From the NCBI GenBank assembly GCA_027324255.1, contig DAHVTI010000124.1, forward strand, positions 1 through 39,150: DNA of 39,150 nucleotides, written 5' to 3'. Under the pieces are notes generated by a model. That model did not search any database. It was not told the DNA's origin and saw only the letters and a list, made by a program, of their open reading frames with translations. A program made the position numbers and the translations under genes. This document shows positions 7,527 to 39,150 of the stretch, piece after piece. Source of the stretch: Bryobacterales bacterium (lineage in GTDB: Bacteria > Acidobacteriota > Terriglobia > Bryobacterales > Bryobacteraceae). The first letter of the stretch is position 1. Each line of letters begins with the position of its first letter.

Positions 7527-7581
7527 GCGGCAATTCGATCGGGGCGGGTTCACCGCGCTTTCTCTCCCCACCCCGTGGCTG

Positions 7582-9022: not shown

Positions 9023-9061
9023 GGCGCCCGGATCCCCGCAAACGGCCAGAAATTACCGAAA

Positions 9062-9091: not shown

Positions 9092-9145
9092 CGGAGCAAC
9101 TCAAACCCGGGTCGTAGACTCGTTAGATATAGAGAGGGGTAACTC

Positions 9146-9406: not shown

Positions 9407-9435
9407 TCTCGCCGGCAAACTCCGGCCGACATTTC

Positions 9436-9466
9436 AGGGCTGCCGCTCTTCGCGGCGGCCCTTTCT
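9436..9466 (+). terminator. Rho-independent terminator of the ferredoxin gene
   Basis: The stem AGGGCTGCCGC pairs with GCGGCGGCCCT (11 bp with one U-G pair) around a TCTTC loop and is followed by TTTCT. It begins 30 bases after the ferredoxin stop. Confidence 0.8.
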
Positions 9467-9483
9467 GCATTCGGGGGATCCGC

Positions 9484-10302
9484 TCAGAGGATCGGGTAGG
9501 GCGACAGACGGATGCCCTCCTCCTGGACCGCCGCCACCACGCGCCCGTCCGTCAACGCTCTCAGTTCCGCCTCCCGGCTCTCCCTCAGACGCGTCGCCGC
9601 GCCCCGCAGCTCTTCCGTGCAGAACCCCGGGTGCGTCATGAACTCCGTCGTGCCAGCCGGCAGGCGCCGCAAAAGGTGCAGCACATCCTCCGCGCTGTAC
9701 CGCCCGGTGAGCTGAAAGCCCGCGAAGTGGTCCGTCGTGCGGCAGCCGCGGGCTGCCAGTTGCCGGTGGAAGCGGCCGCGCAGCGACGACATCGCCCGGC
9801 TCACCGCCCGCACCTTCCACGGCGCCCCGGCCGGCGAGCCCATCAGCGGCAGGTCCATCGGGCGCCGTACCCAGGCAACGCCGAACTCCTCGCCCAGCCG
9901 CGCCACCGCTTCCAGCACCGGCGGCAGCAGGTGCGTGTGCTTGTGCGTGTCCAGGTGCGTCGGCCGGATGCCCGCCTCCACAATGCGCAGCATCTGGGCG
10001 CGCAGCTCGGCGTAAGGGTCCATCCGGCGCAGCGCCAGCGCCCGGATCAGCTCCGGCACCGTCCGCGGCAGCGGGCGCCCGGTCACCAGCGAGTGCCCCT
10101 GCACCAGCACGAAGTGCACCCCGATGTCGAGCGACGGGTGCTCGCGCGCCAACTCCAGCGCATCGTCGAAGGCCGCGCCGTTGGCCATCAGCGTGGTCGA
10201 GGTCAGAATCCCCCGCGTGTGCGCCTCCACGATGCCCCGGTTCACGTCGCGCGTGAAGCCGAAATCGTCCGCGTTGACGGCGAGGATGCGGGCCGCGGCC
10301 AT
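9484..10302 (-). CDS. YdjC/ChbG/HpnK-family carbohydrate deacetylase
   Basis: 272 residues. The YdjC-fold metal site is visible: NADDFG near the N-terminus (metal Asp pair), GVHFVLVQG, and THLDTHKHTHLLP (metal His). The late TTEFMTHPG is characteristic of the family. Members remove N-acetyl groups from sugars; the HpnK branch is associated with hopanoid genes. The ATG at 10302 overlaps the mlaD stop (TGATG), so it is translationally coupled to an Mla-type lipid-transport operon, which favours a lipid- or envelope-linked substrate over chitobiose. The choice between HpnK-like and ChbG-like is inference. Confidence 0.85.
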   Translation of the reverse strand: MAAARILAVNADDFGFTRDVNRGIVEAHTRGILTSTTLMANGAAFDDALELAREHPSLDIGVHFVLVQGHSLVTGRPLPRTVPELIRALALRRMDPYAELRAQMLRIVEAGIRPTHLDTHKHTHLLPPVLEAVARLGEEFGVAWVRRPMDLPLMGSPAGAPWKVRAVSRAMSSLRGRFHRQLAARGCRTTDHFAGFQLTGRYSAEDVLHLLRRLPAGTTEFMTHPGFCTEELRGAATRLRESREAELRALTDGRVVAAVQEEGIRLSPYPIL

Positions 10303-11375: not shown

Positions 11376-11416
11376 GTCTATTTCTCCCTAGCTTGCCATG
11401 AAAGCCGGCGTCGTGC

Positions 11417-12229
11417 TCAGCGGCTGGCGAACTTGGCGACATAGGCGTCGGGGCAATTGTCGAATTCATCGGGGGATCCCAGAAAAGCAATGCGTCCCTC
11501 CTGCAGAACCAGGTAGCGCGTGCGCGTCGATTCCCGCGCCGCCGGCGCCAGCCGGCCGCTCGCGGCGTCGAAGCGGTAGCGGTCCAGAATGTCTCCGTCC
11601 TGGTGGCGGTGAGTCACCATCACCGTGGTCGCTCCGCGCACGTCGCGGCCCTTGGCGATCAGCGCCATGATGGTGTTCGCCGTGATCGGGTCCAGCCCCG
11701 CCGTCGGCGAGTCGTAGATCATCAGCTCGGGCTGCGTGACGATGGCCCGCGCGATGCCCACGCGCCGCCGCATGCCGCCCGACAGCTCGCTCGGAAACCG
11801 CGCCAGCGTGTGGCCCAGCTCCACGAAATCGAGCGACCGCTCCACGCGGTCGCGCACCTGCTCCAGCGGTACGCGCAGCAGCCGCTGGTTCAGCAGCGGG
11901 TAGGCCACGTTTTCCTCGATCGTCAGCGAGTCGAACAGGCCGCCTTCCTGGAACAGCACGCCGATGCGCGAGCGCACGTCGTACCAGTCGCGCTCGTCCA
12001 GTTCCTGCACCTCCCGGCCGAACAGCCGGATGCGCCCGCCCGTCGGCCGCAGCAGGCCCAGCGAGAGCTTCAGCAGCAGCGTCTTGCCGCTGGCCGCGGC
12101 GCCCTGGATCACCAGCGTCTCGCCGCGCCGCAGCTCGAACGAAATGTCCTGGAGCAGCGGTCCCTCGCCGAATCCGAACGAGACGGACTCGAACGCCATG
12201 ACGACGGGACTGGAATCGGTCGCGCTCAT
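11417..12229 (-). CDS. mlaF: ABC-transporter ATPase of Mla-type lipid transport system
   Basis: 270 residues. Walker A GAAASGKT, Q-loop in GVLFQEGGLFDSLTIEENV, signature LSGGMRRRVGIARA, Walker B ELMIYDSPTAGLD (Ser where most ATPases have Glu next to the Walker B Asp pattern 'DEPT'; MlaF proteins also vary here), and H-loop VTHRH. The last 40 residues form the C-terminal extension seen in MlaF-type ATPases. It energises the MlaE permease. Start ATG at 12229, four bases after the mlaE stop; 41 bases then separate it from mlaD. Confidence 0.93.
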   Translation of the reverse strand: MSATDSSPVVMAFESVSFGFGEGPLLQDISFELRRGETLVIQGAAASGKTLLLKLSLGLLRPTGGRIRLFGREVQELDERDWYDVRSRIGVLFQEGGLFDSLTIEENVAYPLLNQRLLRVPLEQVRDRVERSLDFVELGHTLARFPSELSGGMRRRVGIARAIVTQPELMIYDSPTAGLDPITANTIMALIAKGRDVRGATTVMVTHRHQDGDILDRYRFDAASGRLAPAARESTRTRYLVLQEGRIAFLGSPDEFDNCPDAYVAKFASR

Positions 12230-12233
12230 GGCA

Positions 12234-12992
12234 TCACATAGATGTGAAGATGCGGCCGATGATGAAGGTCAGCACTACCACCCACACCGACGCCACGACC
12301 ACGGCCTGCGTCGTGGACCGCCCCACGCCCTGCGTCCCGCCCGTCGTCTGCATGCCGTAATAGCAGCCCACAAGGGAAAGTACGATGGCGAAGCAGAAAG
12401 GTTTCAGCAATCCCTGGGCGATGTCGTTGTACTCGATGGCCCGCCACGCGCTCTCCCAGTACTGCGGGCCCTGCGTGAGATGCAGCATCTGGCAGGCCAC
12501 GATGTAGCCGCCCACCAGGCCCAGGAAGTCCGCCAGGATGGTGAGCAGCGGCAGCACGAAGGCCGTGGCGATCAGGCGCGGCTTCACCAGTTTCAGCACC
12601 GGGTCCGTGCCCAGCGCGCGCATGGCGTCGATCTGCTCGGTGACTTTCATGGAGCCGAGCTCGCTGGCCATGCCCGACGCGTTGCGGCCCGCCACCATCA
12701 GCGCCGTCAGCACCGGCCCCATCTCGCGCACCAGCGTGATGGCCACAATTTTGCCCACCTGGCTGGTGGCGCCGTAGGTCTGCAGCGCGCGCGACATCTG
12801 CAGCGCCATCACCGCGCCGCTGAAGAAGCCCGTCAGGATCACCACCGGCAGGCTGCCGATGCCGATCAGGTCCATCTGGATAAAGATGTCGTCCCAGTAG
12901 TAGGGCTTCCGCGCAATGCCTCTTACCGCCAGCCCGGCGAGGCGCGTGAATTCCTGGAAAGTCTGAACGGGGGACTTGAGAAGGTCCAGCAA
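12234..12992 (-). CDS. mlaE: Mla-type ABC permease
   Basis: 252 residues, the family length. It shows the MlaE core: GFFSGAVMALQ, the coupling region EMGPVLTALMVAGRNASGMASELGSMKV, then EQIDAMRALGTDP, and five to six membrane segments. It is the inner-membrane permease for phospholipid traffic to or from the outer membrane. The start is a TTG at 12992; the frame is closed by a stop 22 bases further up, so no ATG start is possible. It lies only 41 bases from the divergent peptidase gene, so the two promoters must overlap or lie in coding sequence. Confidence 0.92.
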   Translation of the reverse strand: MLDLLKSPVQTFQEFTRLAGLAVRGIARKPYYWDDIFIQMDLIGIGSLPVVILTGFFSGAVMALQMSRALQTYGATSQVGKIVAITLVREMGPVLTALMVAGRNASGMASELGSMKVTEQIDAMRALGTDPVLKLVKPRLIATAFVLPLLTILADFLGLVGGYIVACQMLHLTQGPQYWESAWRAIEYNDIAQGLLKPFCFAIVLSLVGCYYGMQTTGGTQGVGRSTTQAVVVASVWVVVLTFIIGRIFTSM

Positions 12993-13033
12993 AAGGAAGA
13001 GATCCTCTCGTGTTCAAGGCTACCATAGAGGGC

Positions 13034-13984
13034 ATGAAGGGCTTGACGGATATCCCCGGCGTGAAGGTCGGCCATGCCTCCGATTTCGAGGCGCTCACCG
13101 GTTGCACCGTCATCCTGTGCGAGCAGGGCGCCGTGGCCGGCTGCGACATCCGCGGCGGCGCCAGCGGCACCGAGGAAATCGACGTCATGAGCCCCGGCCA
13201 CATCACCCCGCACGTGCACGCCGTCGTGCTGGCCGGGGGCAGCGCCTTCGGCCTGGAAGCCGCCAGCGGCGTGCGGCGCTTCCTCGAGCACAAAGGCATC
13301 GGCTTCGCCACCGGGGCGGCGTTCGTGCCCATCGTCCCCTGCGCCATTCTCTACGACCTCGGCATCGGCAAGGCCAACGTGCGTCCAACGCGCGAGATGG
13401 GCGAGGCGGCCGCGGCCGCGGCCACGGCTGTGGCGGTGCCGGAAGGCTCCGTGGGCGCCGGAACGGGCGCCACCGTCGGCAAGGCTCTCGGCATGAAGAA
13501 TGCCATGAAGTCCGGCATCGGCACTTATACGGTGGAGCTGCCCGGCGGCGTGCTGGTTTCAGCCCTGGCCGCCGTGAACGCCGCCGGCGACGTGCTCGAC
13601 CCCAAAACCGGGGCGATCCTGGCCGGCACACGCAAGCAGCCGGACTCGCGCGAGTTCGCCAACTCAACCGAATTGATGAAACGCGGCCGGGCGCCCGGCG
13701 CGCTGCGCAAGAACACCACGCTGGCCGTCGTCGCCACCAACGCCCGGCTCGATAAGGTGGAAGCCGGACGCGTGGCCCAGGCCGGCCACCACGGCTTTGT
13801 GCGCGCCATCTCGCCGGTGCACACCTCGGTGGACGGGGACCTGTGCATCGCTCTTTCGTGCGGCGCACTCGCCGCCTCGCCCGACGCCGTCGGCGTGGCC
13901 GCCGGGGAGGCGGTGGCGCAGGCCATCGTGCGCGCGGTGAAGACGGCGAAGTCCCTGGGCGGCGTGCCGGGACTTGCCGGGTAA
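13034..13984 (+). CDS. S58/P1-family aminopeptidase (DmpA/BapA-like)
   Basis: 316 residues from the ATG at 13034. Family features: GLTDIPGVKVGHA at the N-terminus, TGCTVILCE, GGAPGT-like GGASGTEE, LAGGSAFGLEAASGV, and the late RKNTTLAVVATNA followed by DGDLCIALSCG. Members are N-terminal-nucleophile hydrolases that self-cleave ahead of a Ser/Thr; here the NTT of RKNTTL is the likely cleavage site. Substrates in the family are N-terminal amino acids, including D-amino acids and beta-peptides; the substrate here is unknown. A GTG start at 13010 with a weak Shine-Dalgarno would add eight residues; I prefer 13034 because the family usually starts just before TDIPG. No signal peptide seen. Confidence 0.88.
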   Translation: MKGLTDIPGVKVGHASDFEALTGCTVILCEQGAVAGCDIRGGASGTEEIDVMSPGHITPHVHAVVLAGGSAFGLEAASGVRRFLEHKGIGFATGAAFVPIVPCAILYDLGIGKANVRPTREMGEAAAAAATAVAVPEGSVGAGTGATVGKALGMKNAMKSGIGTYTVELPGGVLVSALAAVNAAGDVLDPKTGAILAGTRKQPDSREFANSTELMKRGRAPGALRKNTTLAVVATNARLDKVEAGRVAQAGHHGFVRAISPVHTSVDGDLCIALSCGALAASPDAVGVAAGEAVAQAIVRAVKTAKSLGGVPGLAG

Positions 13985-13989
13985 GGCCG

Positions 13990-15237
13990 TCAGTTGCCGG
14001 TGATCAGGTTCTTGACGGTGAAGACCACCAGGGCCACGGTGAGCCCGATCATGATGACCACGCTCAGCCAGCCCACGACGTTGTAGAACGCGCTGTTCTT
14101 CCACTTCTTCATGAGCCGGTCCTTGTTGACGAGGCGGATCATGAAGATCAGCACCAGGGGTAGCAGCGCGCCGTTGATCACCTGGCTCAGCAGGATCATC
14201 TTCACCAGCGGGAACTTGGGGATCAGGATGACCCCCCCGCCCACCACGATGAGCAGCGTGAACAGCCAGTAGAACACCGGCGCCTCGCGGAAGCGGCGGT
14301 TCACGCCGGACTCGAAGCCCAGGCCCTCGCACACCGTGTAGGCCGTCGACAGCGGCAGGATGCAGGCGGCGAAGAGCGACGCGTTGAACAGCCCGGCGCA
14401 GAACAGCAGGTAGGCGTACTGGCCGAAGGGCTTCAGGCCGAGCGCGGCGTCGGTGGCGTCGGTGATGTCGCGCGGCCGCACGGCGTGGATGGCGCCGGCG
14501 CAGGCCACGATGATGAAGAACGCGATCACCGTCATGGCGATGCAGCCCACCACCACCTCGATGCGGCTCTCGGCGTAGTCCTTGGCGCTGATGCCCTTTT
14601 CCACCACCGCCGCCTGCAGGTAGAACTGCATCCACGGCGCCACCGACGTGCCCACCATGCCGATGAGCATCGTGATGTAGCCCGGCTCCAGCATGAGCAC
14701 GGGCTTCACGCTGTAGAGTGCGGCCTCTTTCCAGTCCGGCTTCACCAGCACGCCCGAGACGATGTAGCAGACGTAGAGCGCGGTGGCGAACAGGAACGCC
14801 TTCTCCACGCGCTCATAGGTGCCCTTCACCACCAGGAACCAGACACCGGCCGCGGCCAGCGGCACGGTGATGTAGCGGCTGATGTGGAACAGTTCGAGCG
14901 AGCTGGCCACGCCGGCGAAGTTCGCCATCACGTTGGTCAGGTTGGCGGCCACCAGCAGGGCCATCATGAAGAACGTGGTGCGCAGGCCGAACTCCTCGCG
15001 GATGAGGTCCGAGAGGCCCTTGCCGGTGACGGCGCCCATGCGCGAGCACATCTCCTGCGTCACCACCAGCAGCACGGTGATGGGCGCCAGCGTCCACAGC
15101 GGCAGGTAGCCGTAGCGCGCGCCGGCCTGCGAGTAGGTGAAGATGCCGCCGGCGTCGTTGTCCACCATGGCCGTGATGAAGCCCGGGCCGATGACGGAGA
15201 AGAAGACCAGGATGTGGTACTTGAGGCGCTTCAGCAT
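13990..15237 (-). CDS. Nramp-fold divalent-metal transporter with altered metal site (NRMT-like)
   Basis: 415 residues, about 11 membrane helices. TM1 reads GPGFITAMVDNDAGGIF, which aligns with the Nramp GPGF...DPGN: the Asp is kept but Pro becomes Ala and Asn becomes Gly (DAGG). TM6 reads GTSVAPWMQFYLQA against the canonical MPHNLxLH: the metal-binding Met becomes Ala and the His becomes Trp. Loss of the Met that selects transition metals, together with a co-expressed MgtE-type gating protein, fits the Nramp-related magnesium transporters better than Mn/Fe Nramps. The ATG at 15237 overlaps the stop of the upstream gene (TAATG). Substrate is inference. Confidence 0.85.
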   Translation of the reverse strand: MLKRLKYHILVFFSVIGPGFITAMVDNDAGGIFTYSQAGARYGYLPLWTLAPITVLLVVTQEMCSRMGAVTGKGLSDLIREEFGLRTTFFMMALLVAANLTNVMANFAGVASSLELFHISRYITVPLAAAGVWFLVVKGTYERVEKAFLFATALYVCYIVSGVLVKPDWKEAALYSVKPVLMLEPGYITMLIGMVGTSVAPWMQFYLQAAVVEKGISAKDYAESRIEVVVGCIAMTVIAFFIIVACAGAIHAVRPRDITDATDAALGLKPFGQYAYLLFCAGLFNASLFAACILPLSTAYTVCEGLGFESGVNRRFREAPVFYWLFTLLIVVGGGVILIPKFPLVKMILLSQVINGALLPLVLIFMIRLVNKDRLMKKWKNSAFYNVVGWLSVVIMIGLTVALVVFTVKNLITGN

Positions 15238-16490
15238 TACTTCTGCCTCAGGAGCGAGATGATGTCGTCGGCCGTCACCACGCCGGAGAGGCGGCCGTCC
15301 TCGTCCACGACGGGGAGCGTCATGAGATTGTACTTATCGAACAGTTCGGCCACGCGCCTGGAGTGCTCGTCGGCTGGCACGTGGATGGGCTCTTCGTCCT
15401 CCGGAATGATGCTGGAGAGCGCGGCCGTGGGGCGCGCCAGGAAGACGCGGGCCACGGGCAGCGCGGCCTTCAGGCGGTCGTCGATGTCGGTGACGAAGAT
15501 GGTGTTGACCGTGTCCACGAGGTCGGGGTTCTGGCGCAGGGCGTCGAGCGCGTCGGCCACGGTGGCGTCCTCGTGCACGCTGACGAACTCGGTGTTCATC
15601 ATGCCTCCGGCGGTGTCCTCGTCGTATTCGAGCAGTTCCTCGACCTCGGCCTTGGGCTCGCTCTCCATCTCCTCGAGGATCTCTTCGGAGGTCTCCTCCT
15701 CGAGTTCGCCGAGCACGTCGGCGGCCTCGTCCGGGTCCATCTCCTCGAGGATGTCGGCGGCCTTCTCGGTCTCCAGCGACTCGATGATCTGGGCCTGCAG
15801 TTCGGGCTCCATCTCGGAGAGCGCTTCGGCGGCCACCTCGGTGTCGATGGCCTCGAAGATGGCCTCGCGGTCCTCGTGGCTGAGTTCCTCGACGATATCG
15901 GCGAGGTCGGCCGGGTGCATGTTCTCCAGGGGCTCCATGGAGATGTTGAGGCGCAGGCGGCGCTGCGGGTCCGGCTCGACGATGTTGCATAGCCCCCAAC
16001 TGATGGAACTGGGAGGGATGCGGCTCTGCAGACGGCGGATGACGCGGCGCGGCAGCCAGCCCTGCAGCAGGCGTCGCATGACGCTGCGCATGCCGATATC
16101 GACTTCGAGGACGTGCAGGGCGTCGCGGCCGGCCTCGCGGCGGATGTCGAAGGTGACGTCGGTGACGCGCACTACCTTGCGGCCCTGGGCGTCGATGATC
16201 TGCTGGTCGAGCAGGTCGCGCACCAGCCGCAGCATGTACTCGTCGGGATGATAGGGGGCGATCTGCTCGTCGATGAGAGTGATGCCGTCGAGGGAGATGG
16301 AAGCGATCTGGTCGTGCCGGACGCTCAGCCAGCTATAGCCGCCGCCGCCGGCGATCAGGTAGCGGTCCACCCGCACCGGATGCACCACGGGCACCAGGAC
16401 TGCGTCCTGGATGCGACCCAACAGCCGGTGCTTCAGATCATAGACCTTGAGCCCGAGCAGTTCGGTGAGGTAGAGGATCTGGTCTGCCAT
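15237..16490 (-). CDS. MgtE-type cytosolic gating protein (PRC-barrel + MgtE-N + CBS pair), no membrane domain
   Basis: 417 residues and soluble. Residues 1-190 look like two PRC-barrel-type beta domains (LGLKVYDLKHRLLGRIQDAV and DAQGRKVVRVTDVTFDI). About 195-305 is an MgtE N domain of repeated acidic helices (MHPADLADIVEELSHEDREA, then EKAADILEEMDPDEAADVLG). About 305-417 is a CBS pair (YDEDTAGGMMNTEFVSV and NLMTLPVVDEDGRLSGVVT). In MgtE these domains bind Mg2+ and close the channel, but here the MgtE membrane domain is absent and an Nramp-fold permease follows with overlapping stop/start. I chose the ATG at 16490; frames further upstream lack family sequence. Confidence 0.88.
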   Translation of the reverse strand: MADQILYLTELLGLKVYDLKHRLLGRIQDAVLVPVVHPVRVDRYLIAGGGGYSWLSVRHDQIASISLDGITLIDEQIAPYHPDEYMLRLVRDLLDQQIIDAQGRKVVRVTDVTFDIRREAGRDALHVLEVDIGMRSVMRRLLQGWLPRRVIRRLQSRIPPSSISWGLCNIVEPDPQRRLRLNISMEPLENMHPADLADIVEELSHEDREAIFEAIDTEVAAEALSEMEPELQAQIIESLETEKAADILEEMDPDEAADVLGELEEETSEEILEEMESEPKAEVEELLEYDEDTAGGMMNTEFVSVHEDATVADALDALRQNPDLVDTVNTIFVTDIDDRLKAALPVARVFLARPTAALSSIIPEDEEPIHVPADEHSRRVAELFDKYNLMTLPVVDEDGRLSGVVTADDIISLLRQK

Positions 16491-29149: not shown

Positions 29150-32100
29150 GTGTTGATCCGAATCCTCGCTTTCACCCTGCTGGCGGCCACCGGGCTGCCG
29201 GCGCAAGAGTCTCGCGGAACCATCCGCGGCCGCATCACGGATCCCTCCGGCGCGGTCGCCGCCGGCGCGCGGGTGGAGGCCGCGAATATGGACACGGGCG
29301 TCAAAGTCCCGGCCGCCTCCAACACGGAGGGCAACTACGAGATCCCCTACCTGCTGGCCGGGCGGTACCGGCTGACGGTGGACCTTGCGGGTTTCAAGAA
29401 GAGTGTGCGGGACGACATCGAGCTGCGCATCAACGACCGCCTGACGGTGGACTTCAGCCTGGAGTTGGGCACGGTGGGCGAGAGCGTGACGGTGTCGGGC
29501 GACGCGACGCTGCTGGAGACGGCTTCCGCCTCGCTGGGCGGCGTGGTAGACGGGAGACGAATCACCGAGTTGCCGATTGCGGGTGGGAACGCCTATCACC
29601 TGGTGCGGTTCATGCCGGGGGTGAATGCCACGGGCGGGCATGCGCCGGGCAATCCGACACAGGACCTGGCAAACGGCGCGGTGGTGGTGAACGGCACGCG
29701 CACGGGCAGCAGCGAGGCGCTGGTGGATGGGGTACCGAACATGGCGAACAACGCTTCCACTTACATGGCGCCGCCGCAGGACATGGTGGAGGAGTTCCGG
29801 GTGCAGACGACAACATACGACGCTAGCGCAGGGCGGGCGACGGGCGCGATCGTCAACCTGACGACGAAGTCGGGCTCTAACCAGTTCCACGGCACGGGGT
29901 ATTACCTGGATTCGCGGACGCGCGCGGTGCCGTGGTTTTCCAACCGCTGGCTGTACGACCTCTCTACGGGGCCGATCACCGATGAGAAGCGGCGGCAGGC
30001 CAACCCGGGCTGGCTGTACCTGCGGTGGGGCGGTACGGTGAGCGGGCCGGTGGTGATCCCGAAGGTGTACGACGGGCACAACAGGACCTTCTGGAGCTTC
30101 GGCTACGAGGGGATGAAAGTGCAGCGGCAGGCGACGGTGATCGCCACGTTTCCGACGGCGGCGCAGCGGGCGGGCGACTTCTCGCAACTGCTGGCGCTGG
30201 GTGGGGCGTACCAGATCTACGATCCGCGGTCCGGCGTGCTGCAGGCGAACGGGCGGGTGAGCCGGCAGCCGGTGGCAGGCAACCGCATCCCGTCGTCGGC
30301 GCTGGACCCGATTGCGGCAAACATCATGAAGTACTTCCCGAACCCGAACGTAGCGGGCGACAAGGAAGGACGGAGCAATTATTTCCAGATCGAGGACGAG
30401 AAGTGGCGCTACAAGTCGATCGCGGCGCGGCTGGACCACAACTTCTCGGAGCGGTGGCGGGCGTTCACGCGCGTGTCGAGCAGCGAGTTCGACCAGCGGG
30501 TGCGGTCGTACCCGAGCGAAGCGGTGGGGACGTGGAACAATCCGTCGGGCTACAGGGTGGCGCTGGACAATGTCTACACGTTTTCGCCGACCACGCTGCT
30601 GAACGTACGCTACGGGTTGGTGGTGCAAAGGCCATACAGCGCGCCGCTGCACCGGGGCTTCGACCTCAGCTCGCTGGGATTTTCTTCCGCCCTGATCAGC
30701 CAGATTCAATCCAAGACCGACTATGCCGGCGTATCGTTCCCGGCGCTGACGGTGGACGGCTACACGGGCCTGGGCGGGGGCGGCGGCAGCCTGAGCTCGG
30801 TTTACTCGCACACGATCGGCACGACAGTGACGCACATTCAGGGCGACCATTCCTGGCGCGCGGGGCACGAGTTCCGCCTCATGCGCGAGAACGGCTTCGG
30901 CTACGGCAACGTATCGCCGGCTTACACGTTCGGCAGCGCCTACACGAAGGGGCCGCTGGACACCTCCGGGGCGGCGCCCATCGGGCAGGGGTTGGCCTCG
31001 CTCCTGTACGGCATTCCGACCGGCGGGCAAGTGAACGTAAACGCCAGCCGGGCGGAGCAGTCGAGCTTCCACGCGCTGTTCTTCCAGGATGACTGGCGGC
31101 TCACGCGGAAGCTGACGCTGAACCTGGGCGTGAGGTGGGAGGTGGAACTGCCGGTGACGGAGCGCTTCAACCGCACGATCCGAGGCTACGCGTTCGACGC
31201 GGCGCATCCCATCGAGGGGCAGGCGCGCGCCAACTATGCGGCGAACCCGATCCCGCAGATTCCGGCCGCGGCATTCGCGGTGAAGGGCGGACTGACGTTT
31301 GCCGGCGTAGACGGGCTGCCGCGCGAACTCTGGACGAGCGACAAGAACAACTTCATGCCGCGAATCGGCCTGGCGTACCAGCTCAACGGCCTGACGGTCG
31401 TGCGTGCGGGCTACGGCGTGTTTTTCGCGCCGTCGGGCTCGGACCGGACGGACGTGAACCAGGGCGGCTTCAGCCAGTCGACGCTGATCGTGCCGACGCT
31501 GAACAACGGTGTAAGCTTCAACGCCACGCTGGCGAGCCCGTTCCCGAACGGCATCGACACGCCGGTGGGGTCGGCGGGCGGCATGAACACGTTCCTGGGT
31601 CGCGGGATCAGCTTCTTCAACACGCATCCGCTGAACGGCTACATGCAGCGCTGGTCGCTGAACGTACAGCGGCAACTGCCGCTGCGCATGGTGCTGGAGG
31701 TCGGCTATGTGGGCAACCGGGGTACGAAGCTGACATCGAGCCGGGCGCAGGACGGCATTCCGACGCAGTACCTGTCGACGAGCGGGGTACGCGACCAGAC
31801 GACGATCAACCTGCTGAACGACCAGGTGAAGAACCCGTTCGCGGGCATCGCGGGCTTCACGGGGACCTCGCTGGCGGGGGCGAACGTGGCGCGATCGCAG
31901 TTGCTGCGGCCCTATCCTCACTTCACGGGGATGAGCATGGCGACGAACGACGCGTTCTCGTTCTACAACGCGATGACCGTCAATCTGGAGAAGCGGCTGT
32001 CGCACGGGCTGGTGCTGCAGACGAACTGGACATGGTCGAAGTTCATGGAGGCGACCGGCTACCTGAACGAGATGAATGCGCGGCCGGCCTACACGGTGTC

Positions 32101-32647
32101 GGACCTCGACTTCACGCAGCGCTTCAGCCTGACGGGCATCTACGAGCTGCCGTTCGGCAAAGGCAAGCCGGTCTTCGGCGGGGTCAACCGTTGGGTGGAC
32201 CTGCTGATCGGTGGCTGGCAGGCCCAGGCCTCGTATGAAGGGCAGTCGGGCGCTCCGCTGGGCTTCGGCAACGCGATCTTCAACGGGGACCTGGGCGGCA
32301 TCGCAATCCCGGTCTCGCAGCGCATGGCGGAACGCTGGTTCAACCCGGACGCGGGTTTTGAGCGCCGGGCGGCCTATCAACTGGCGTCGAACGTGCGGCA
32401 GTTCCCGCTGCGGTTCAGCGGAATTCGCGGAGACGGGATCAACAACGTGGACGCGTCGTTCATGAAGCGGTTCCGGATCACGGAGCGGGTGAACGCGCAG
32501 TTCCGGCTGGAGGCGATCAACGCGGCCAACCACGTGCAGTTCGCTGATCCGAACACGACGCCGACGAGCACGGCGTTCGGGACGGTGACGGCGGAAAAGG
32601 GGCACGGCCAGCGGCAGTTGAACCTGTTCATGAAGGTGATCTTCTAA
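29150..32647 (+). CDS. Oar-like TonB-dependent outer-membrane receptor
   Basis: 1165 residues. Signal peptide MLIRILAFTLLAATGLPAQE; carboxypeptidase-regulatory-like domain at about 23-105 (GTIRGRITDPSGAVAAGARV, GNYEIPYLLAGRYRLTV); plug at about 120-240 (ITELPIAGGNAYHLVRFMPG, DGVPNMANNASTYMAPPQD, VEEFRVQTTTYDA); then a long 22-strand-type barrel ending RQLNLFMKVIF with the aromatic C-terminal residue needed for outer-membrane insertion. Acidobacteria have many such receptors. The upstream riboswitch candidate suggests a corrinoid or B12-linked substrate. Start GTG at 29150 (or TTG 29153) with AGGAG about ten bases upstream. GC use and length are normal for the family. Confidence 0.93.
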   Translation: MLIRILAFTLLAATGLPAQESRGTIRGRITDPSGAVAAGARVEAANMDTGVKVPAASNTEGNYEIPYLLAGRYRLTVDLAGFKKSVRDDIELRINDRLTVDFSLELGTVGESVTVSGDATLLETASASLGGVVDGRRITELPIAGGNAYHLVRFMPGVNATGGHAPGNPTQDLANGAVVVNGTRTGSSEALVDGVPNMANNASTYMAPPQDMVEEFRVQTTTYDASAGRATGAIVNLTTKSGSNQFHGTGYYLDSRTRAVPWFSNRWLYDLSTGPITDEKRRQANPGWLYLRWGGTVSGPVVIPKVYDGHNRTFWSFGYEGMKVQRQATVIATFPTAAQRAGDFSQLLALGGAYQIYDPRSGVLQANGRVSRQPVAGNRIPSSALDPIAANIMKYFPNPNVAGDKEGRSNYFQIEDEKWRYKSIAARLDHNFSERWRAFTRVSSSEFDQRVRSYPSEAVGTWNNPSGYRVALDNVYTFSPTTLLNVRYGLVVQRPYSAPLHRGFDLSSLGFSSALISQIQSKTDYAGVSFPALTVDGYTGLGGGGGSLSSVYSHTIGTTVTHIQGDHSWRAGHEFRLMRENGFGYGNVSPAYTFGSAYTKGPLDTSGAAPIGQGLASLLYGIPTGGQVNVNASRAEQSSFHALFFQDDWRLTRKLTLNLGVRWEVELPVTERFNRTIRGYAFDAAHPIEGQARANYAANPIPQIPAAAFAVKGGLTFAGVDGLPRELWTSDKNNFMPRIGLAYQLNGLTVVRAGYGVFFAPSGSDRTDVNQGGFSQSTLIVPTLNNGVSFNATLASPFPNGIDTPVGSAGGMNTFLGRGISFFNTHPLNGYMQRWSLNVQRQLPLRMVLEVGYVGNRGTKLTSSRAQDGIPTQYLSTSGVRDQTTINLLNDQVKNPFAGIAGFTGTSLAGANVARSQLLRPYPHFTGMSMATNDAFSFYNAMTVNLEKRLSHGLVLQTNWTWSKFMEATGYLNEMNARPAYTVSDLDFTQRFSLTGIYELPFGKGKPVFGGVNRWVDLLIGGWQAQASYEGQSGAPLGFGNAIFNGDLGGIAIPVSQRMAERWFNPDAGFERRAAYQLASNVRQFPLRFSGIRGDGINNVDASFMKRFRITERVNAQFRLEAINAANHVQFADPNTTPTSTAFGTVTAEKGHGQRQLNLFMKVIF

Positions 32648-32696
32648 GGGGGAGGAGAAGGGCGCCGGCCTCCTTCGCCAAGGCTACGGCGGCCGG

Positions 32697-32727
32697 GCCT
32701 AGGCGGGACCTCCTGCCCCGCCTAGGC
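32697..32727. terminator. Bidirectional hairpin between the receptor gene and araB
   Basis: GCCTAGGCGGG and CCCGCCTAGGC form a perfect 11-bp stem with a 9-base loop. The stem includes the araB stop codon. It sits where the two genes converge; no T-run is present on either strand. The stretch 32648-32696 contains no gene. Confidence 0.5.
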
Positions 32728-34287
32728 TCGCAGGCGGCGGAGGGCCGGCAGGACGCCGCCGATCTCGACGGCGGCGGAGCCGGGCTTGCCGAGGCCGAAG
32801 TAGAGCTTGCGGTAGAGGGCGAACAGTTGCTCGTAGACGGCGGCTTCGGCCGGGTCGGGCTGGATGACCTGATAGGAGGGGCAGAGCTTTTCCTGCGCCT
32901 CTTCGATGGTGCGGAAAGCGCCGGCGGCCATAAAGGCGAAGATGGCGGAGCCGAGGCTCGTCACCTCCTGCGCGGGAACGAGGACGGGCTTGTTGAAGAC
33001 GTTGGCGTAGACGCGGTTGAGCGTGGGGTTCTTCTGCGGGATGCCTCCGCCGTTGATGACGCGGTGGATGGGAACGCCATGTTCGGCCATGCGCTCCAGG
33101 ATGATGCGGGTGTGGAAGGCGGTGCCTTCGATGGCGGCGAAGAGTTCGTCGGCGGCGGTGGTGGTGAGGGTCCAGCCGAGGGTGACGCCGCCGAGTTCGG
33201 CGTTGACGAGGACGGTGCGGTCGCCGTTGTCCCAGGTGAGGCGGAGCAGGCCGGTGGAGCCGGCCTTGCAGTTGTCGAGGCCCGCGGAGAGGGCGGCGAC
33301 GGTAGCGCCGGCGCGGTGGGCGATGGCTTCGAAGATGTCGCCGACGGCGGAGAGGCCGGCCTCGATGCCGTAGTAATCGGGGTGGATGGATCCTTTGACG
33401 ACGCCGCAGACGCCGGGGATGAGGCCCACTTCCCGGGCGATGGCCATCATGCAGGTGGAGGTGCCGACCACGTTGACGACGTCGCCTTCGCGGATGCCGG
33501 CGCCGATGGCGTCCCAGTGGGCGTCGAAGGCGCCGACGGGGATGGGGATGCCGGCCTTCAGGCCGAGCTTCGAGGCCCATTCGGGGGAGAGATGGCCGGC
33601 GATGCGGTCGGAGGTTTCGTAGCGGCCTTGGAGCTTCGAGCGGACGCCGGCCAGCAGCGGATCGACCTGGGTGAGAAACTCTTCCGGAGGCAGGCCGCCG
33701 AGGGCGTCATTGTACATCCACTTGTGGCCCATGGCGCAGACGCTGCGCGGGGCTTCGGCCGGGGAGGTGATGCCGCAGAGCGCGGCGGCCACGAGGTCGC
33801 AGTGCTCCATGGCGGTGACCATAGAGCCGCGCTTTTCAGGGTTGTTGCGCAGCCAGTGGAGGAGCTTGGAGAAGCCCCACTCGGAAGAGTAGACGCCGCC
33901 GCACCAGTTCAGCGCCTCCAGGCTGGTGGAGCGGGCCTTGGCGGTGATTTCGCCGGCCTCGTTCTTCGCGCGGTGATCGCACCAGAGGTAGTAGTCGTCC
34001 AGCGGGGTGAGTCCTGCGCCGAGGGGGATGACGGTGGAGCCGGTGGTGTCGAGGGCGATGGCCTGGACGAGGGAGCCGTCGACGCCGGCCGCCTGGAGGG
34101 CGTCGCGGGTGGCGGCGGCCAGCGCGTTCATGTGGTCGGCGTGGCTCTGGGTGGCGTGGTCGGGGTCTTCGCGCCGGCGGCTGACCGGGTATTCGGCGGA
34201 AGCCGCGCCGAGGCGGCCCCGTTCGCTGTCAAAGAGCGAGACGCGGACGGTCTGGGTTCCGAAGTCCACGCCGGCGACAACAGACAT
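32722..34287 (-). CDS. araB: Ribulokinase (FGGY family)
   Basis: 521 residues. FGGY kinase features: N-terminal phosphate loop VAGVDFGTQTVRVSLFD, ALDTTGSTVIPLG, YLWCDHRAKNEA, the catalytic Asp in PVGAFDAHWDAIGAG, and the C-terminal ATP loop NGGGIPQKNP. These match AraB-type ribulokinases more than xylulo- or glycerol kinases. It phosphorylates L-ribulose to L-ribulose-5-phosphate, the substrate of AraD. The ATG at 34287 has AGGAGG about ten bases upstream. It is divergent from araD with a shared 70-base gap; araA is not seen. Confidence 0.92.
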   Translation of the reverse strand: MSVVAGVDFGTQTVRVSLFDSERGRLGAASAEYPVSRRREDPDHATQSHADHMNALAAATRDALQAAGVDGSLVQAIALDTTGSTVIPLGAGLTPLDDYYLWCDHRAKNEAGEITAKARSTSLEALNWCGGVYSSEWGFSKLLHWLRNNPEKRGSMVTAMEHCDLVAAALCGITSPAEAPRSVCAMGHKWMYNDALGGLPPEEFLTQVDPLLAGVRSKLQGRYETSDRIAGHLSPEWASKLGLKAGIPIPVGAFDAHWDAIGAGIREGDVVNVVGTSTCMMAIAREVGLIPGVCGVVKGSIHPDYYGIEAGLSAVGDIFEAIAHRAGATVAALSAGLDNCKAGSTGLLRLTWDNGDRTVLVNAELGGVTLGWTLTTTAADELFAAIEGTAFHTRIILERMAEHGVPIHRVINGGGIPQKNPTLNRVYANVFNKPVLVPAQEVTSLGSAIFAFMAAGAFRTIEEAQEKLCPSYQVIQPDPAEAAVYEQLFALYRKLYFGLGKPGSAAVEIGGVLPALRRLRA

Positions 34288-34357
34288 GATTGCGCTTACC
34301 TCCTGTGAAACTGGCATCTTATCGCATACGCTGGTAGAGGAGTAATTGATTGCGGCC

Positions 34358-35050
34358 ATGCTGATTGAATCGCTTCGCCAACAGGTCCTCGAGGCCAACC
34401 TGGAGATCGTGCGCCGGGGCCTCGTGCTGTACACATTCGGCAACGCCAGCGGTTATTTACCGGAGGAAGGGCTGGTGGCTATCAAGCCCAGCGGCGTACC
34501 CTTCGAGAAACTGCGGCCCGAAGACATGGTGGTGGCCGAGTTGTCGGGCAGAATCGTGGACGGGACGCTGCGGCCCTCCTCGGATCTCGACACGCACCTG
34601 GAGATCTACCGGAGCTTTCCGTGCGTGCTGGGGGTGGTGCACACGCACTCCGGCTACGCGACGGCGTTCGCGCAGGCGCAGGCGGAGATTCCGTGCCTTG
34701 GTACGACGCACGCGGACTACTTTTACGGCAGCGTGCCGGTGACGCAGCCGCTGGCGGAAGAAGAGATCCGGGGCGACTATGAGTTGAACACGGGCAAGGC
34801 GATCGTGCGGCGGTTCGAGGGGATCGATCCGCTGACGCGGCCGGGGGTGCTGGTGGCCTCGCACGGGCCGTTCGCGTGGGGGACGTCGCCGGCCCGGGCG
34901 GCGATGAACGCCGTGCTGCTGGAAGAGATCGCGCGCATCGCGGCGATCACCATCGGAATCAACCCGAGCGTGCAGGCGATCGGCAAGGCGCTGCACGACC
35001 AGCATTTCCTGCGGAAGCACGGCCCGTGCGCGCGCTACGGGCAGGGGTAA
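34358..35050 (+). CDS. araD: L-ribulose-5-phosphate 4-epimerase
   Basis: 230 residues, the normal length. Class II aldolase-fold motifs: FGNASGYLPEEGLVAIKPSGV, SDLDTHLEIY with the catalytic Asp region, zinc ligands in VVHTHSGYATAFAQ, THADYFYGSVPVT, and a C-terminal LHDQHFLRKHGPCARYGQG. It epimerises L-ribulose-5-phosphate to D-xylulose-5-phosphate. I chose the ATG at 34358, where the family starts (LIESLRQQVLEAN); a TTG at 34346 lies closer to AGAGGAG. Divergent from araB, a separated arrangement. Confidence 0.92.
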   Translation: MLIESLRQQVLEANLEIVRRGLVLYTFGNASGYLPEEGLVAIKPSGVPFEKLRPEDMVVAELSGRIVDGTLRPSSDLDTHLEIYRSFPCVLGVVHTHSGYATAFAQAQAEIPCLGTTHADYFYGSVPVTQPLAEEEIRGDYELNTGKAIVRRFEGIDPLTRPGVLVASHGPFAWGTSPARAAMNAVLLEEIARIAAITIGINPSVQAIGKALHDQHFLRKHGPCARYGQG

Positions 35051-35120: not shown

Positions 35121-35282
35121 AAGATTCCGGCAAGGCTTTCCGGACCCCGCTGGGAATATTTACCGATTAGCGTAATTCTTTCTCTCCTCGTAGGGTTTCT
35201 AACGGACCGGGTTGAGGAAACCTCCGCCTTCGTTCGCGAGGCGCTCCGCCGATAGGAACACATCGGGATTTTGTGCGTCCCC
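35121..35282 (+). other. Leader region of the multihaem operon
   Basis: No gene. Several short complementary segments can be read: TCCGG/CCGGA near 35126-35142, GGTTTC/GAAACC around 35194-35222, and CGCCT/AGGCG around 35226-35244. A structured leader is possible but no known riboswitch class was recognised; in particular the c-di-GMP (GEMM) consensus is not there. Confidence 0.35.
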
Positions 35283-37226
35283 ATGCCGGGGAGTGTTGGA
35301 GAGGGTTTGCTCTTAAGAAGTTGGGCCGACAGCGGTAGACTTGTCGCCCGCCTGCTCGTGGTAGCGGCGGGGCTGCTGCCTTGCCGCGCTCAGATGTCGC
35401 CGGGGGACCTGTCGCAGGCGCACCGGGAACTCGACAGCCCGCTCAGGTGCGTGTCCTGCCACGAATTCGGGGCCGGGGCGGCGCAGTTCAAGTGCTTGCA
35501 GTGCCACGAGGAGATCGCGCGCCGGCTGGCTGAGAAGCGCGGCTACCACGCGAAGGTGGTGCGGGGCACGGGGCGTCAGGCGGCCAACGACTGCAGCCGG
35601 TGCCACTCCGAGCACAACGGCCGGCGCCACCAACTGGTGCGCTGGCGGACGCCGAAGCTGAAGTTCGACCACAAGGAAGCGGGCTGGCCGCTGGAGGGCA
35701 AGCACGCGCGGGCGCGCTGCGAGCAGTGCCACAACGAAAGCCGCATCACGGCGGAGGACCGCGTCGTGCTGAAGCGGTCGAACCTGTCGGCGACATACGC
35801 CGGGCTGAGCCCGCGCTGCACGGCGTGCCACCGGGACGAGCACCGCGGAGACCTGGGCAAGGACTGCACGCGCTGCCACACCTTGGAGGGCTGGAAGCCG
35901 GCGTCCGGCTTCGACCATGGCAAGGCTGCCTTTGTCCTGACGGGCCGGCACGAGCAACTGGCGTGCGAGAAGTGCCACAAGCGGCTGGCGGCGCTGGGCA
36001 ATCACGTGCAATTCAAGAACTTCGGTTTCTTCAACACCTGCCGGGCCTGCCACCAGGACCCGCACGGCGGCTCCTTCGCCGGCGACTGCGAGAAGTGCCA
36101 CACCACCGCCGGGTGGAAGCCGGCGCGGCTGGAGGGCGGCTTCCAGCACGACAAGACCGGCTTCCCGTTGAAGGGGCGGCACGCCGCGGTGGAGTGCCGG
36201 AAGTGTCACCAGAGCGAAAATTTCCGCGCGAAGATTCCGCACGGGCGGTGCCTGGACTGCCACGAGGACCGGCACCGGGGGCAGCTCGCGGCGCGCGAGG
36301 GCGGCGAGTGCGGCGCCTGCCACACGGAGACGGGCTGGAAGCCGGCGCGGTTCGGGACGCGGGAGCACGCCGGCACGCGTTTCCCGCTGAACGGCCGGCA
36401 CGCGCCGGTGGAGTGCGCGAAATGCCATGCGGGGCAGGGCGCGGGCGTCAACTACCACCCGGCCTTCGCCAGTTGCCGGGACTGCCACCAGGACCGCCAC
36501 CGCGGCCAGTTTGCCGGCGCGCCGTATGAGAACCGCTGCGAGCGCTGCCACGCCGACGGCGGCTGGCAGGCGGCTCGCTACACCCTGGCCGATCACCAGA
36601 AAGGGCGGTTCGCTCTGCTGGGGGCGCACGCGGCCGTGCCGTGCGGCGAGTGCCACCGGGCGGGAGCGGATCCGGCGGACCGGCCGTTCCATTTTGGGTC
36701 GCTCGACTGCCAGCAGTGCCACGCCGACCCGCACCGCACGGTGCAGGCCGCGGCGGCGGGAGAGCGCCTGTCACCGGCGGCGGCGCGGTGGGGGTGCCCG
36801 TCCTGCCACACCACGCGGACCTGGAAGGAGACAGGGCCGTTCGACCACGGGCGGACGGACTTCGCGCTGACGGGCAAGCACCGCGGCGCGCCGTGCACCG
36901 GCTGCCACAAGCCGGCCGTAATGGGTGAGAAGAAGCTCGTGTCGTTCGCCGGAACGGCGCGGGCGTGCGGCGCCTGCCACGGCGACGCGCACGACGGGCA
37001 GTTCGCCGGGCTCGGCGGGACGCAGCCGGACTGCGCGCGCTGCCACGAGACGTCCAACTGGCGCTCGAACGAGTTCGACCATCAGAGGAATACGAACTTC
37101 TCGCTGGCGGGGGCACACGAGCGGGTGCCGTGCCGGATGTGCCACGCGAACCGGCGGCAGGTGGAGGGGCGCATGGTGGTGTTGTACCGCGGGACGCCGA
37201 GGAGTTGCGAGGAGTGCCATCGATGA
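35283..37226 (+). CDS. 23-haem multihaem cytochrome c
   Basis: 647 residues. Signal peptide with the hydrophobic part LVARLLVVAAGLLPCRAQ (cleavage likely after AQ). Then 23 CxxCH haem sites, about one per 27 residues, from CVSCH to CEECH, which is followed directly by Arg and the stop. The recurring module is CxxCHTxxGWKPAxFDH then FxLxGRHxxVxCxKCH and CxDCHxDxHRGQ, of the class III/c7-like multihaem type. It should carry electrons across the periplasm or beyond the outer membrane. The start is uncertain: ATG 35283 gives a plausible long signal peptide; a TTG at 35271 is in frame. ATGA overlap couples it to the next gene. Confidence 0.93.
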   Translation: MPGSVGEGLLLRSWADSGRLVARLLVVAAGLLPCRAQMSPGDLSQAHRELDSPLRCVSCHEFGAGAAQFKCLQCHEEIARRLAEKRGYHAKVVRGTGRQAANDCSRCHSEHNGRRHQLVRWRTPKLKFDHKEAGWPLEGKHARARCEQCHNESRITAEDRVVLKRSNLSATYAGLSPRCTACHRDEHRGDLGKDCTRCHTLEGWKPASGFDHGKAAFVLTGRHEQLACEKCHKRLAALGNHVQFKNFGFFNTCRACHQDPHGGSFAGDCEKCHTTAGWKPARLEGGFQHDKTGFPLKGRHAAVECRKCHQSENFRAKIPHGRCLDCHEDRHRGQLAAREGGECGACHTETGWKPARFGTREHAGTRFPLNGRHAPVECAKCHAGQGAGVNYHPAFASCRDCHQDRHRGQFAGAPYENRCERCHADGGWQAARYTLADHQKGRFALLGAHAAVPCGECHRAGADPADRPFHFGSLDCQQCHADPHRTVQAAAAGERLSPAAARWGCPSCHTTRTWKETGPFDHGRTDFALTGKHRGAPCTGCHKPAVMGEKKLVSFAGTARACGACHGDAHDGQFAGLGGTQPDCARCHETSNWRSNEFDHQRNTNFSLAGAHERVPCRMCHANRRQVEGRMVVLYRGTPRSCEECHR

Positions 37227-39150
37227 AAGTGCCGCGGGCCTGGATCCTGCTGACGCTGGCCTTGGCCGGGGCCCTGGCGCAGAGCGCGCCGGCACGGCGC
37301 ACGGCGAATCCGCACGGAGCGCTGAAGGTGGCGTGCGAGAGCTGCCACACGGCGTCCGGCTGGCGGCCGGCGAGGCCGCGGATGGAGTTCGACCACGACA
37401 CACAGACGGCGTATCCGCTGCGCGGGGGCCACGCGGGCGTCGCCTGCAACGCCTGCCACGTGGACCGTGTGTTCCGCAACGTGGGGCACCAGTGCTCGGC
37501 CTGCCACGCCGACATCCACCGCCGGCAGTTCGGCGGCAACTGCCAGGAGTGCCACACGGTGCAGGGCTTCCGCACGGCAGTGCGGCAGACTCGGGAGCAC
37601 TTTAACCGCTTTCCGCTACTCGGCGCGCATGCGGCGGCGGCCTGCGAGAGCTGCCACAAGGGGGCGGCGAGCGGCGTGTATTCGGGGCTGAGCACGGACT
37701 GCGCGGCGTGCCACCTGGCGGACTATCGCGCGGCCGTGGAGCCGCCGCACACGACGGCGCCGTTCCCGGTGGCGTGCGATCAGTGCCACTCGATGGATTC
37801 GTGGCGCGGGGCGAAGTTCGACCACGCGGCGGTGACGCGCTTTGCGCTGAGCGGCGCGCACGCCCGGCTGGAATGCCGGAGCTGCCACGTGGGCGGGCGG
37901 TTCACGGGCACGCCGGCGGACTGCTTTTCCTGCCACGCGGCGCAGTTTTCGGCGGCGCAGAACCCGAGCCACGAACAGGCCGGCTTCCCGCGCGACTGCG
38001 CCACCTGCCACGGCGCCTCGCAGTGGGCCGGGGCGGTGTTCGACCACGCGGCCCGGACGAGCTTTGCGCTCACCGGCGCGCACGCCAAGGCGCAGTGCAA
38101 CGGCTGCCACGTGGCCGGGCGGTTCGCGGGGACGCCGCAGAACTGCGAAGCCTGCCACCTGGAGGCCTACAACAAGACGACGAATCCGAACCACGCGGCC
38201 TCCAATTTTCCGCGGGGCTGTGCGCAGTGCCATACGACGGCGCAGTGGAAAGGGGCGAGCTTCGACCACCACCTGGGCCGCTTCGCGCTGACCGGGGCGC
38301 ACCTCAGGACGGAATGCGCGCAGTGCCACACGGGCGGGCGGTACACGGGCACGCCGGCGGCGTGCGAGGGATGCCACCTGCAGGCCTACCAGGCTGCGGC
38401 GAACCCGAACCACGCCGCGGCGGGGTTCCCGAAGGACTGCGCGCTGTGCCACGTGACGGCACAGTGGCAGGGGGCGTCCTTCAACCACGGCACCGCGACG
38501 AAGTTCCCGCTGACCGGGGCGCACGTGCAGGCGCAGTGCGGAGCGTGCCACGCGGCTGGGCGGTTCGCCGGGACGCCGCAGAACTGCGAGGGCTGCCACG
38601 CGGACGCATTTCAGAAAACGGCGAACCCGAATCATGCGGCGGCGGGGTTCCCGAAGGACTGCGCGGGGTGCCACACGACGGCGCAGTGGATGGGGGCGAA
38701 GTTCGACCACTCGACGATGACGAAGTTCGCGCTGACCGGGAAGCACACCACCACGACGTGCGCGCAGTGCCACGCGGGAGGCGTCTTCCGCGGCACGCCG
38801 GCGGCGTGCGAGGGGTGCCACCTGCAGAACTACAACCAGACGACGAACCCGAACCACGCGGCGGCGGGGTTCCCGAAGGACTGCGCGGTGTGCCACACGA
38901 CGGCGCAGTGGCAGGGGGCGAAGTTCGACCATTCGACGATGACGAAATTCGCGCTCACCGGGAAGCACACGGCGACGCAGTGCGCGCTGTGCCACGTGGG
39001 CGGCGTCTTCCGCGGCACTCCGGCGAACTGCGACGGGTGCCACCTGGCGCAGTACAACCAGACCGCGAACCCGAATCACACGGCGGCGGGTTTCCCGAAG
39101 GACTGCGCGGTGTGCCACACGACGGCGCAGTGGCAGGGGGCGAAGTTCGA
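37223..39150 (+). CDS. Giant repeat-built multihaem cytochrome c (runs off right edge)
   Basis: At least 642 residues, still open at the window edge. ATG 37223 overlaps the previous stop (ATGA). Signal peptide MKVPRAWILLTLALAGALAQ, then 25 visible CxxCH sites. From residue 185 the protein consists of tandem units of 74 residues (one of 73), each with three CxxCH and three extra histidines in FDH (or FNH), TGxH and NPNH. The unit reads CAxCHTTAQW, GAxFDH, FALTGxH, CxxCH, GGxFxGTP, CxGCH, NPNHAAAGFPKD. Three haems and three free His per unit would allow bis-His ligation throughout. Likely a periplasmic or extracellular electron wire; final location unknown. Confidence 0.93.
   Translation, partial: MKVPRAWILLTLALAGALAQSAPARRTANPHGALKVACESCHTASGWRPARPRMEFDHDTQTAYPLRGGHAGVACNACHVDRVFRNVGHQCSACHADIHRRQFGGNCQECHTVQGFRTAVRQTREHFNRFPLLGAHAAAACESCHKGAASGVYSGLSTDCAACHLADYRAAVEPPHTTAPFPVACDQCHSMDSWRGAKFDHAAVTRFALSGAHARLECRSCHVGGRFTGTPADCFSCHAAQFSAAQNPSHEQAGFPRDCATCHGASQWAGAVFDHAARTSFALTGAHAKAQCNGCHVAGRFAGTPQNCEACHLEAYNKTTNPNHAASNFPRGCAQCHTTAQWKGASFDHHLGRFALTGAHLRTECAQCHTGGRYTGTPAACEGCHLQAYQAAANPNHAAAGFPKDCALCHVTAQWQGASFNHGTATKFPLTGAHVQAQCGACHAAGRFAGTPQNCEGCHADAFQKTANPNHAAAGFPKDCAGCHTTAQWMGAKFDHSTMTKFALTGKHTTTTCAQCHAGGVFRGTPAACEGCHLQNYNQTTNPNHAAAGFPKDCAVCHTTAQWQGAKFDHSTMTKFALTGKHTATQCALCHVGGVFRGTPANCDGCHLAQYNQTANPNHTAAGFPKDCAVCHTTAQWQGAKF
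37775..39150 (+). repeat. Tandem 222-bp coding repeats, three haems each
   Basis: Units start at 37775, 37997, 38219, 38438 (the previous unit is one codon short), 38660, 38882 and 39104; the seventh is cut by the window end. Later units resemble each other most (units 5 and 6 differ at about 12 of 74 residues), while unit 1 is the most divergent, the pattern expected of an array that grew by unequal duplication toward its 3' end. Confidence 0.92.

Follow-up and report, generated by a model that had tools for sequence, protein, structure and literature searches.

The window analysed here, 39,150 bases in full, is an entire contig (C115; DAHVTI010000124.1 of assembly GCA_027324255.1) from the 6.17 Mb, 605-contig genome of a Bryobacterales bacterium. 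At its 3' end lies the gene for a multihaem cytochrome, MHC2, built from repeated three-haem units. The gene for a second multihaem cytochrome, MHC1, lies immediately upstream, and its stop overlaps the MHC2 start by 4 nucleotides (ATGA). In the relatives we examined, MHC1 has a fixed number of haem motifs while that of MHC2 changes in steps of three, and the two genes belong to a conserved cluster that probably encodes a porin–cytochrome conduit of the PCC3 type. Feature coordinates are given in Table 1.

The MHC2 frame (37223-39148, plus strand) comprises 642 residues with 25 CxxCH motifs, or 25.7 residues per haem, in agreement with the very high haem density claimed in a preliminary description of this DNA. 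The frame stays open up to the window end; since the window is the whole contig, the gene is cut by the assembly. In the window, MHC2 has no cysteines besides those of its CxxCH motifs and has 27 histidines outside them. The first 217 residues hold seven haems with irregular CxxCH spacing (37/16/16/34/19/25). Regular units begin at residue 218 and are 74, 73, 74, 74 and 74 residues long, followed by a last unit that is cut after 56 residues yet has all three CxxCH. Spacing in the units is 16/25/33 (32 in one case), and their DNA copies are spaced 222 nucleotides apart (219 once), with 60-83% identity to the reference copies. MHC2 had been described as a series of even 74-residue three-haem units; the regular array stands, while the evenness gives way to an irregular seven-haem start and to units of either 73 or 74 residues.

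Both cytochromes scored above the cut-off for Pfam Cytochrome_C7 and for PF22113, an MtrC/MtrF-like domain (52.8 bits for MHC2 and 40 for MHC1, cut-off 30), although the latter match is not specific. A phmmer search of PDB sequences with MHC2 gave no match up to E 1, and the MHC2 profile gave 11 weak matches, the best being the sixteen-haem cytochrome 1z1n (9.8e-6). The MHC1 profile came nearest to chain 3ov0 among solved chains (E 1.9e-7), with weaker matches to NrfB and others. We take 3ov0 to be the c7-polymer GSU1996 of Geobacter. CxxCH spacing in the stretch of 3ov0 that was counted is 26 then 16; parts of MHC1 are alike (25/16), whereas MHC2 has the reverse (16/25), which rules out a canonical c7 spacing for MHC2.

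When the other contigs of the same genome were searched with MHC2, there was a strong match on C550 (2.3e-109) and a weak one on C537 (2.2e-4). The match on C537 led no further, as no multihaem frame on that contig reaches 150 residues. C550 starts within a CxxCH of the same frame and runs through 14 further CxxCH and a distinct C-terminal block to a stop at 1039. Because each contig carries one end of the array, and because the genes that come after the array on C550 also follow it in relatives, the two contigs appear to adjoin. If they do, MHC2 of this genome would have at least 40 haems, counting the motif cut at the edge. This is a lower bound, since about 60 bases (the final 18 residues of the truncated unit plus the beginning of the following one) are missing between the contigs and whole units may be missing as well. 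The earlier expectation of a total well above 25 haems thus seems sound, and with C550 as the continuation there is no stop directly past the window. Cytochrome_C7 was also matched on contigs C395, C587 and C182 of this genome, in open frames that range from 553 to 939 residues, and the organism may encode additional large multihaem cytochromes there.

When species genomes were searched with the N-terminal block of MHC2, 189 relatives were found, and 80 of them were kept. Of the 80 fetched loci, 18 lack the 3' end of the MHC2 frame, leaving 62 closed frames (the fragment L100 included). Haem motifs in MHC2 were counted as CxxCH plus CX3CH and CX4CH. The count was 1 mod 3, that is 10+3n, in 57 of these 62 frames and ranged from 16 to 79. 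The probability of this at one in three is 6e-22, a figure that overstates the case since the genomes are related. MHC1, in contrast, had 23 CxxCH in 13 of 13 loci of one set and in all 67 closed MHC1 frames of another that overlaps it. Besides these 67, the second set contains six other closed frames (five are MHC2 itself, from loci in which MHC1 was not found, and one is the broken L100) and four more that are cut by contig ends.

Two individual assemblies follow the same rule: G005, which consists of 3 contigs, has a single frame with 64 haems, and G060 has 28. Occallatibacter savannae AB23 (L089), a cultured carrier, has 34. The largest MHC2 (L067) has 79 haems in an open frame of 2015 residues. 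The proposal that length goes with repeat number is therefore borne out by the three-haem steps of the closed frames. Short-read haem counts may be too low, since so many of the loci end within MHC2. The MHC2 frame of G006 (L038, 8167-13260, minus strand) is split into pieces with 37, 5, 5 and 13 CxxCH, through either faulty sequencing of the repeat or decay of the gene. Several units of L092, L125 and L127 have CX4CH (mostly CGNSQCH) in place of CxxCH, 4 to 7 per protein.

Copies of the unit have diverged: mean DNA identity by separation was 41-78% in five arrays, and the best pair reached 93%. The most similar pairs lie one to three units apart (93% for units 17/20 of L067, 90% for 4/6 of G005, 86% for 10/11 of L056). 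This pattern is as expected if blocks of units have been duplicated.

Each unit had also been said to carry histidines to match its haems, and this holds well beyond the window. All three expected intervals contained a histidine in 378 of 383 regular units from 61 closed relatives, and the other five units miss the histidine preceding the next unit. This survey used 61 of the 80 loci (frames open at the 3' end and L100 were left out), accepted units only at spacings of 14-17, 23-28 and 30-36, and sought histidines in intervals, not at one place. Of the 27 extra histidines in the window, 19 are either invariant or conserved to at least 90% in an alignment of 55 sequences (A2, consisting of 54 of 68 usable relatives plus the window); six of the eight less conserved ones belong to the last two units, a region in which shorter relatives are gapped. 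In alignment A1 the first row stops after the N-terminal block. There is no regular methionine in the array of the window, which, with the three conserved histidines, makes one His-Met haem in every unit less likely. The conserved histidines support haems with two histidine ligands, whether these are supplied by the same unit or the next, a pairing that is not readable from sequence. The preliminary description proposed a rod or fibre, a shape that MHC2 may have, with stacked haems presumably attached at its motifs.

MHC2 is not a lone giant cytochrome, a possibility we considered and ruled out, for it sits in a conserved cluster: MHC1 (28.3 residues per haem), MHC2, a predicted beta-barrel protein, a small open reading frame (ORF) and a membrane protein with five helices, frequently joined by a ferredoxin/flavin oxidoreductase. 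Downstream of the 62 closed MHC2 frames we found the barrel gene in 57, the membrane protein in 53 and the flavoprotein in 40. The five frames lacking a barrel gene have less than 0.8 kb of contig left.

The 307-residue membrane protein on C550 has WX3HX13H at 99 and 279 and SGIAG at 139. Among its homologues, 50 of 53 have both WX3HX13H motifs and all 53 have SGXXG. Of the three exceptions, one runs off its contig, and the other two combine a single full WX3HX13H with an additional HX13H. AlphaFold2 modelled the barrel family (the L056 member with 47 relatives) at a pLDDT confidence score of 80.8, with 22 strands from residue 145 on, and Foldseek matched this model to outer-membrane barrels (ushers, OccK, AlgE and others) at E values down to 7e-9. 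The barrel alignment (A3) holds 48 of 55 listed barrels; alignments A4 and A5 hold 28 of 52 and 28 of 70 relatives, each plus two rows.

Table 1. Features of the window and of contig C550, its presumed continuation.
Feature	Position	Strand	Basis or remark
MHC2, multihaem cytochrome built from repeats, 5' part, 25 CxxCH	37223..39150	+	ORF, motif count
MHC2 N-terminal seven-haem block, conserved, 189 residues, irregular spacing	37307..37873	+	Shared with relatives
Three-haem unit array, units of 73/74 residues, 5 complete and 1 cut at contig end	37874..39150	+	Spacing, DNA repeats
MHC1, partner cytochrome, 23 CxxCH	35271..37226	+	Start uncertain: TTG 35271 or a later codon
MHC2 3' part, probable continuation	C550 (L007:2-1039)		14 CxxCH and a motif cut at the edge
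553-residue protein, hydrophobic start, final phenylalanine	C550, after array		Predicted beta-barrel
273-residue protein without family	C550, after barrel gene		
307-residue membrane protein, five hydrophobic stretches	C550		
477-residue protein, N-terminal helix, 4Fe-4S and FAD/NAD(P) domains	C550		
TPR protein	C550, after 477-residue protein		
TonB-receptor-like outer-membrane protein	29150-32647	+	Pfam
FGGY sugar kinase	~32725-34299	-	Pfam
Class II aldolase	34346-35050	+	Pfam

The genes upstream of the cluster in the window (29150-35050) are ordinary by Pfam. The closely related G008 also carries this aldolase and this sugar kinase upstream, at 85-86% identity.

It had been suggested that the unit be sought in other Bryobacterales. 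At 1e-30, MHC2 was matched in 14 of 61 genomes (its own included) and in 7 of 9 in the genus, and relatives were also found outside Bryobacterales. By their titles, 79 of the 80 kept relatives are Acidobacteriota. The label of the remaining one, L115 (CALQCC020000017.1), is very likely wrong, as it is titled a Bordetella parapertussis metagenome-assembled genome (MAG) yet has an acidobacterial cluster. At 1e-10 the barrel profile matched 24 genomes in a phylum-wide sample of 396 (13 along most of the profile, one in two pieces and ten along part of it), and at 1e-20 the membrane-protein profile matched 55 genomes in a sample of 299 from the class, a count of this protein, not of whole clusters.

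Cluster relatives occur in the Terriglobia (Acidobacteriota) and on a plasmid in the Bacteroidota. Plasmid pEMTOL02 of Emticicia oligotrophica (L133, NC_018749.1; cultured strain DSM 17448) carries the membrane protein, flavoprotein, MHC1, MHC2 and barrel in one run at 3595-15393, in another order. Its MHC1 (34% identity over 94%) has 23 haems and its MHC2 has 40, a number that again equals 10+3n. This was the sole full match in our plasmid searches; the cluster is complete and adjoins a CcsA cytochrome c maturation gene. A match on a Bradyrhizobium BTAi1 plasmid was rejected, being a short 7-haem gene whose neighbour has no membrane-protein motifs.

PCC3 systems are described as a porin, a surface cytochrome (median 34 haems, up to 85, the number in strain S58) and a periplasmic cytochrome (median 21), with an inner-membrane protein of about 300 residues that has five helices and contains WX3HX13H twice as well as SGXXG (He et al. 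2017, PMC5566968). The present cluster matches this description: a gene for a predicted outer-membrane beta-barrel is present, the membrane protein has the stated size, helices and motifs, both cytochromes fall within 22-39 residues per haem, and repeats occur. It differs from PCC3 as described there in the constant 23 haems of MHC1 and the 10+3n series of MHC2. The frequent presence of a ferredoxin/FAD oxidoreductase in the cluster may be a further difference. The PCC3 systems of that report are mostly from Proteobacteria, and the words Acidobacteria and Bacteroidetes are absent from its main text.

Similar pairs have been described elsewhere. A Burkholderiales cluster pairs a 24-haem with a 49-haem cytochrome next to a porin, and the larger of the two varies (PMC7399161), and PCC3 of Gallionellaceae has cytochromes of 21, 24 or 27 and of 10-35 haems, with models that are long and mostly linear (PMC10734462). 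Both resemble our cluster in having two large cytochromes by a porin, the larger of which varies through gain and loss of CxxCH domains; they differ in the numbers for both partners, and the available text describes no three-haem rule. Porin-cytochrome clusters have been reported in Acidobacteriota, some near a ferredoxin-NADP reductase and one group with more than 20 haem motifs (PMC13264449). The text of that report gives no repeat rule or fixed partner, and its clusters may or may not coincide with the ones described here. Holophaga porins are of the MtrB and ExtB/E type (PMC7399161), and the Verrucomicrobia porin-cytochrome system, with an eight-haem partner, seems to be of another type (PMC5615132). 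The text available for PMC12977616 and PMC3669403 contained nothing on this cluster.

Other known systems fit less well. The MtrCAB/DmsE type is not indicated, as the barrel has no Pfam or NCBIfam match and MHC1 reached only 31.2 of 192.2 bits with TIGR03508. NCBIfam nanowire_3heme (TIGR04257) stayed below its cut-off in MHC1 (21.5 of 40 bits) and was not listed for MHC2. The Geobacter c7 polymers GSU1996 (12 haems) and GSU2210 (27 haems) share with MHC2 tandem three-haem domains of similar size, about 75 residues; GSU1996 has one His-Met haem per domain, whereas the units here have three histidines (PMC10138318). With up to 86 haem motifs reported in ANME archaea (anaerobic methanotrophs; PMC9012536), neither the haem number nor the kind of system is a record. 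Our literature search, which covered mostly open papers without preprints, figures or supplements, found no description of the present cluster, with its haem rule, from Acidobacteriota. The general kind has been known since 2017, and the combination of an MHC1 fixed at 23 with an MHC2 of 10+3n was not found described.

Taken together, these observations make it likely that the MHC2 array is a long, length-variable cytochrome, probably at the cell surface, of a PCC3-type porin-cytochrome conduit. The route we propose follows the model published for PCC3. Either the quinone pool or the oxidoreductase on the cytoplasmic side (perhaps using NAD(P)H or ferredoxin) would exchange electrons with the five-helix inner-membrane protein, which would hold two haems b. 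MHC1 would take the electrons across the periplasm, the beta-barrel would let the haem chain through the outer membrane, and MHC2 would extend the path to or from an outside partner such as iron oxides, humics, electrodes or other cells. Electrons could flow either out of or into the cell, a direction not readable from the genes. At the scale of the ten-haem MtrA, about 100 Å long (PMC5566968), 40 haems would reach at most about 400 Å and 79 haems about 800 Å. We can also suggest, with rather less than even confidence, that the periplasm dictates the length of MHC1 and so keeps it at 23 haems, while outside the outer membrane MHC2 gains whole three-haem units by duplication and loses them again (n from 2 to 23), tuning its reach.

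Several observations weigh against a PCC3-type surface conduit. The match to PCC3 was made by published feature descriptions, not by sequence comparison with proteobacterial PCC3. The periplasmic cytochromes described for PCC3 have a median of 21, or 21/24/27, or 24 haems, and 23 is not among the numbers in the available text of PMC5566968, PMC7399161 and PMC10734462; the surface cytochromes of Gallionellaceae (10-18, 26, 28, 29, 33 and 35 haems) break the 10+3n rule (PMC10734462). Five of our own closed frames break it as well: L087 (32), L100 (5, the fragment), L119 (42), L120 (23) and L130 (18). The hydropathy script flagged no stretch at the N-terminus of MHC1 or MHC2, so the case for export rests on our reading of signal-like N-termini and on CxxCH; the location of each protein, haem attachment and function are likewise inferred. 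No Pfam or NCBIfam model fits the barrel, its profile matched none of the PDB sequences, and the TM-scores of its Foldseek matches are low (query-normalised 0.16-0.41 among the 50 matches listed), showing only that it is a barrel. The AlphaFold2 model of MHC2 is poor (mean pLDDT 63, pTM 0.30); with this poor model Foldseek gave three matches, none at E 0.001, and VIA-align placed none of 16 chains at Z 2, so that neither result is informative. Presence of MHC2 across the genomes is patchy.

Finally, in L084 and L097 only MHC2 and the barrel were detected nearby, with neither MHC1 nor the membrane protein. Judging by titles, L084 shares a MAG with L080, where MHC1 and MHC2 are present and the contig then ends, and L097 shares one with L106, which has a fuller cluster. 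A second, two-gene copy (MHC2 and barrel) therefore seems to exist; L104 may be a further such locus.

We consider it unlikely that MHC2 is instead confined to the periplasm, where it would store charge in the way proposed for GSU1996. Proteins of that type are called periplasmic nanowires and capacitors (PMC10138318), the best match of the MHC1 profile among solved chains is to 3ov0, and no lipobox cysteine was seen at the MHC2 N-terminus. However, a barrel gene comes after MHC2 in nearly all closed frames, even in L084 and L097. Tandem units and an array left open at the window end would also suit a subunit that polymerises end to end into a long fibre, like OmcS, but complete relatives have conserved N- and C-terminal blocks unlike the units, and their unit number is finite and depends on the species; we regard such a fibre as very improbable and have set it aside. 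That the repeats are an artefact of misassembled reads is hardly credible, even with contigs that end inside the array here and elsewhere and a broken frame in G006, given the long open frames in many species, the divergence among unit copies and the 64 haems in one frame of the three-contig G005 assembly.

Terriglobia are common in soil, and little is known of their electron transfer outside the cell. If MHC2 lies at the surface, it would link abundant soil heterotrophs to the redox chemistry of iron or humics. The contrast between a partner fixed at 23 haems and one that follows 10+3n offers a natural series, from 16 to 79 haems, for relating wire length to reach and rate, and it raises the question of why MHC1 stays constant. 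Tests of PCC3 function are still lacking (PMC12442390), and a member that is built by a strict rule and occurs in two cultured organisms would be of use for them.

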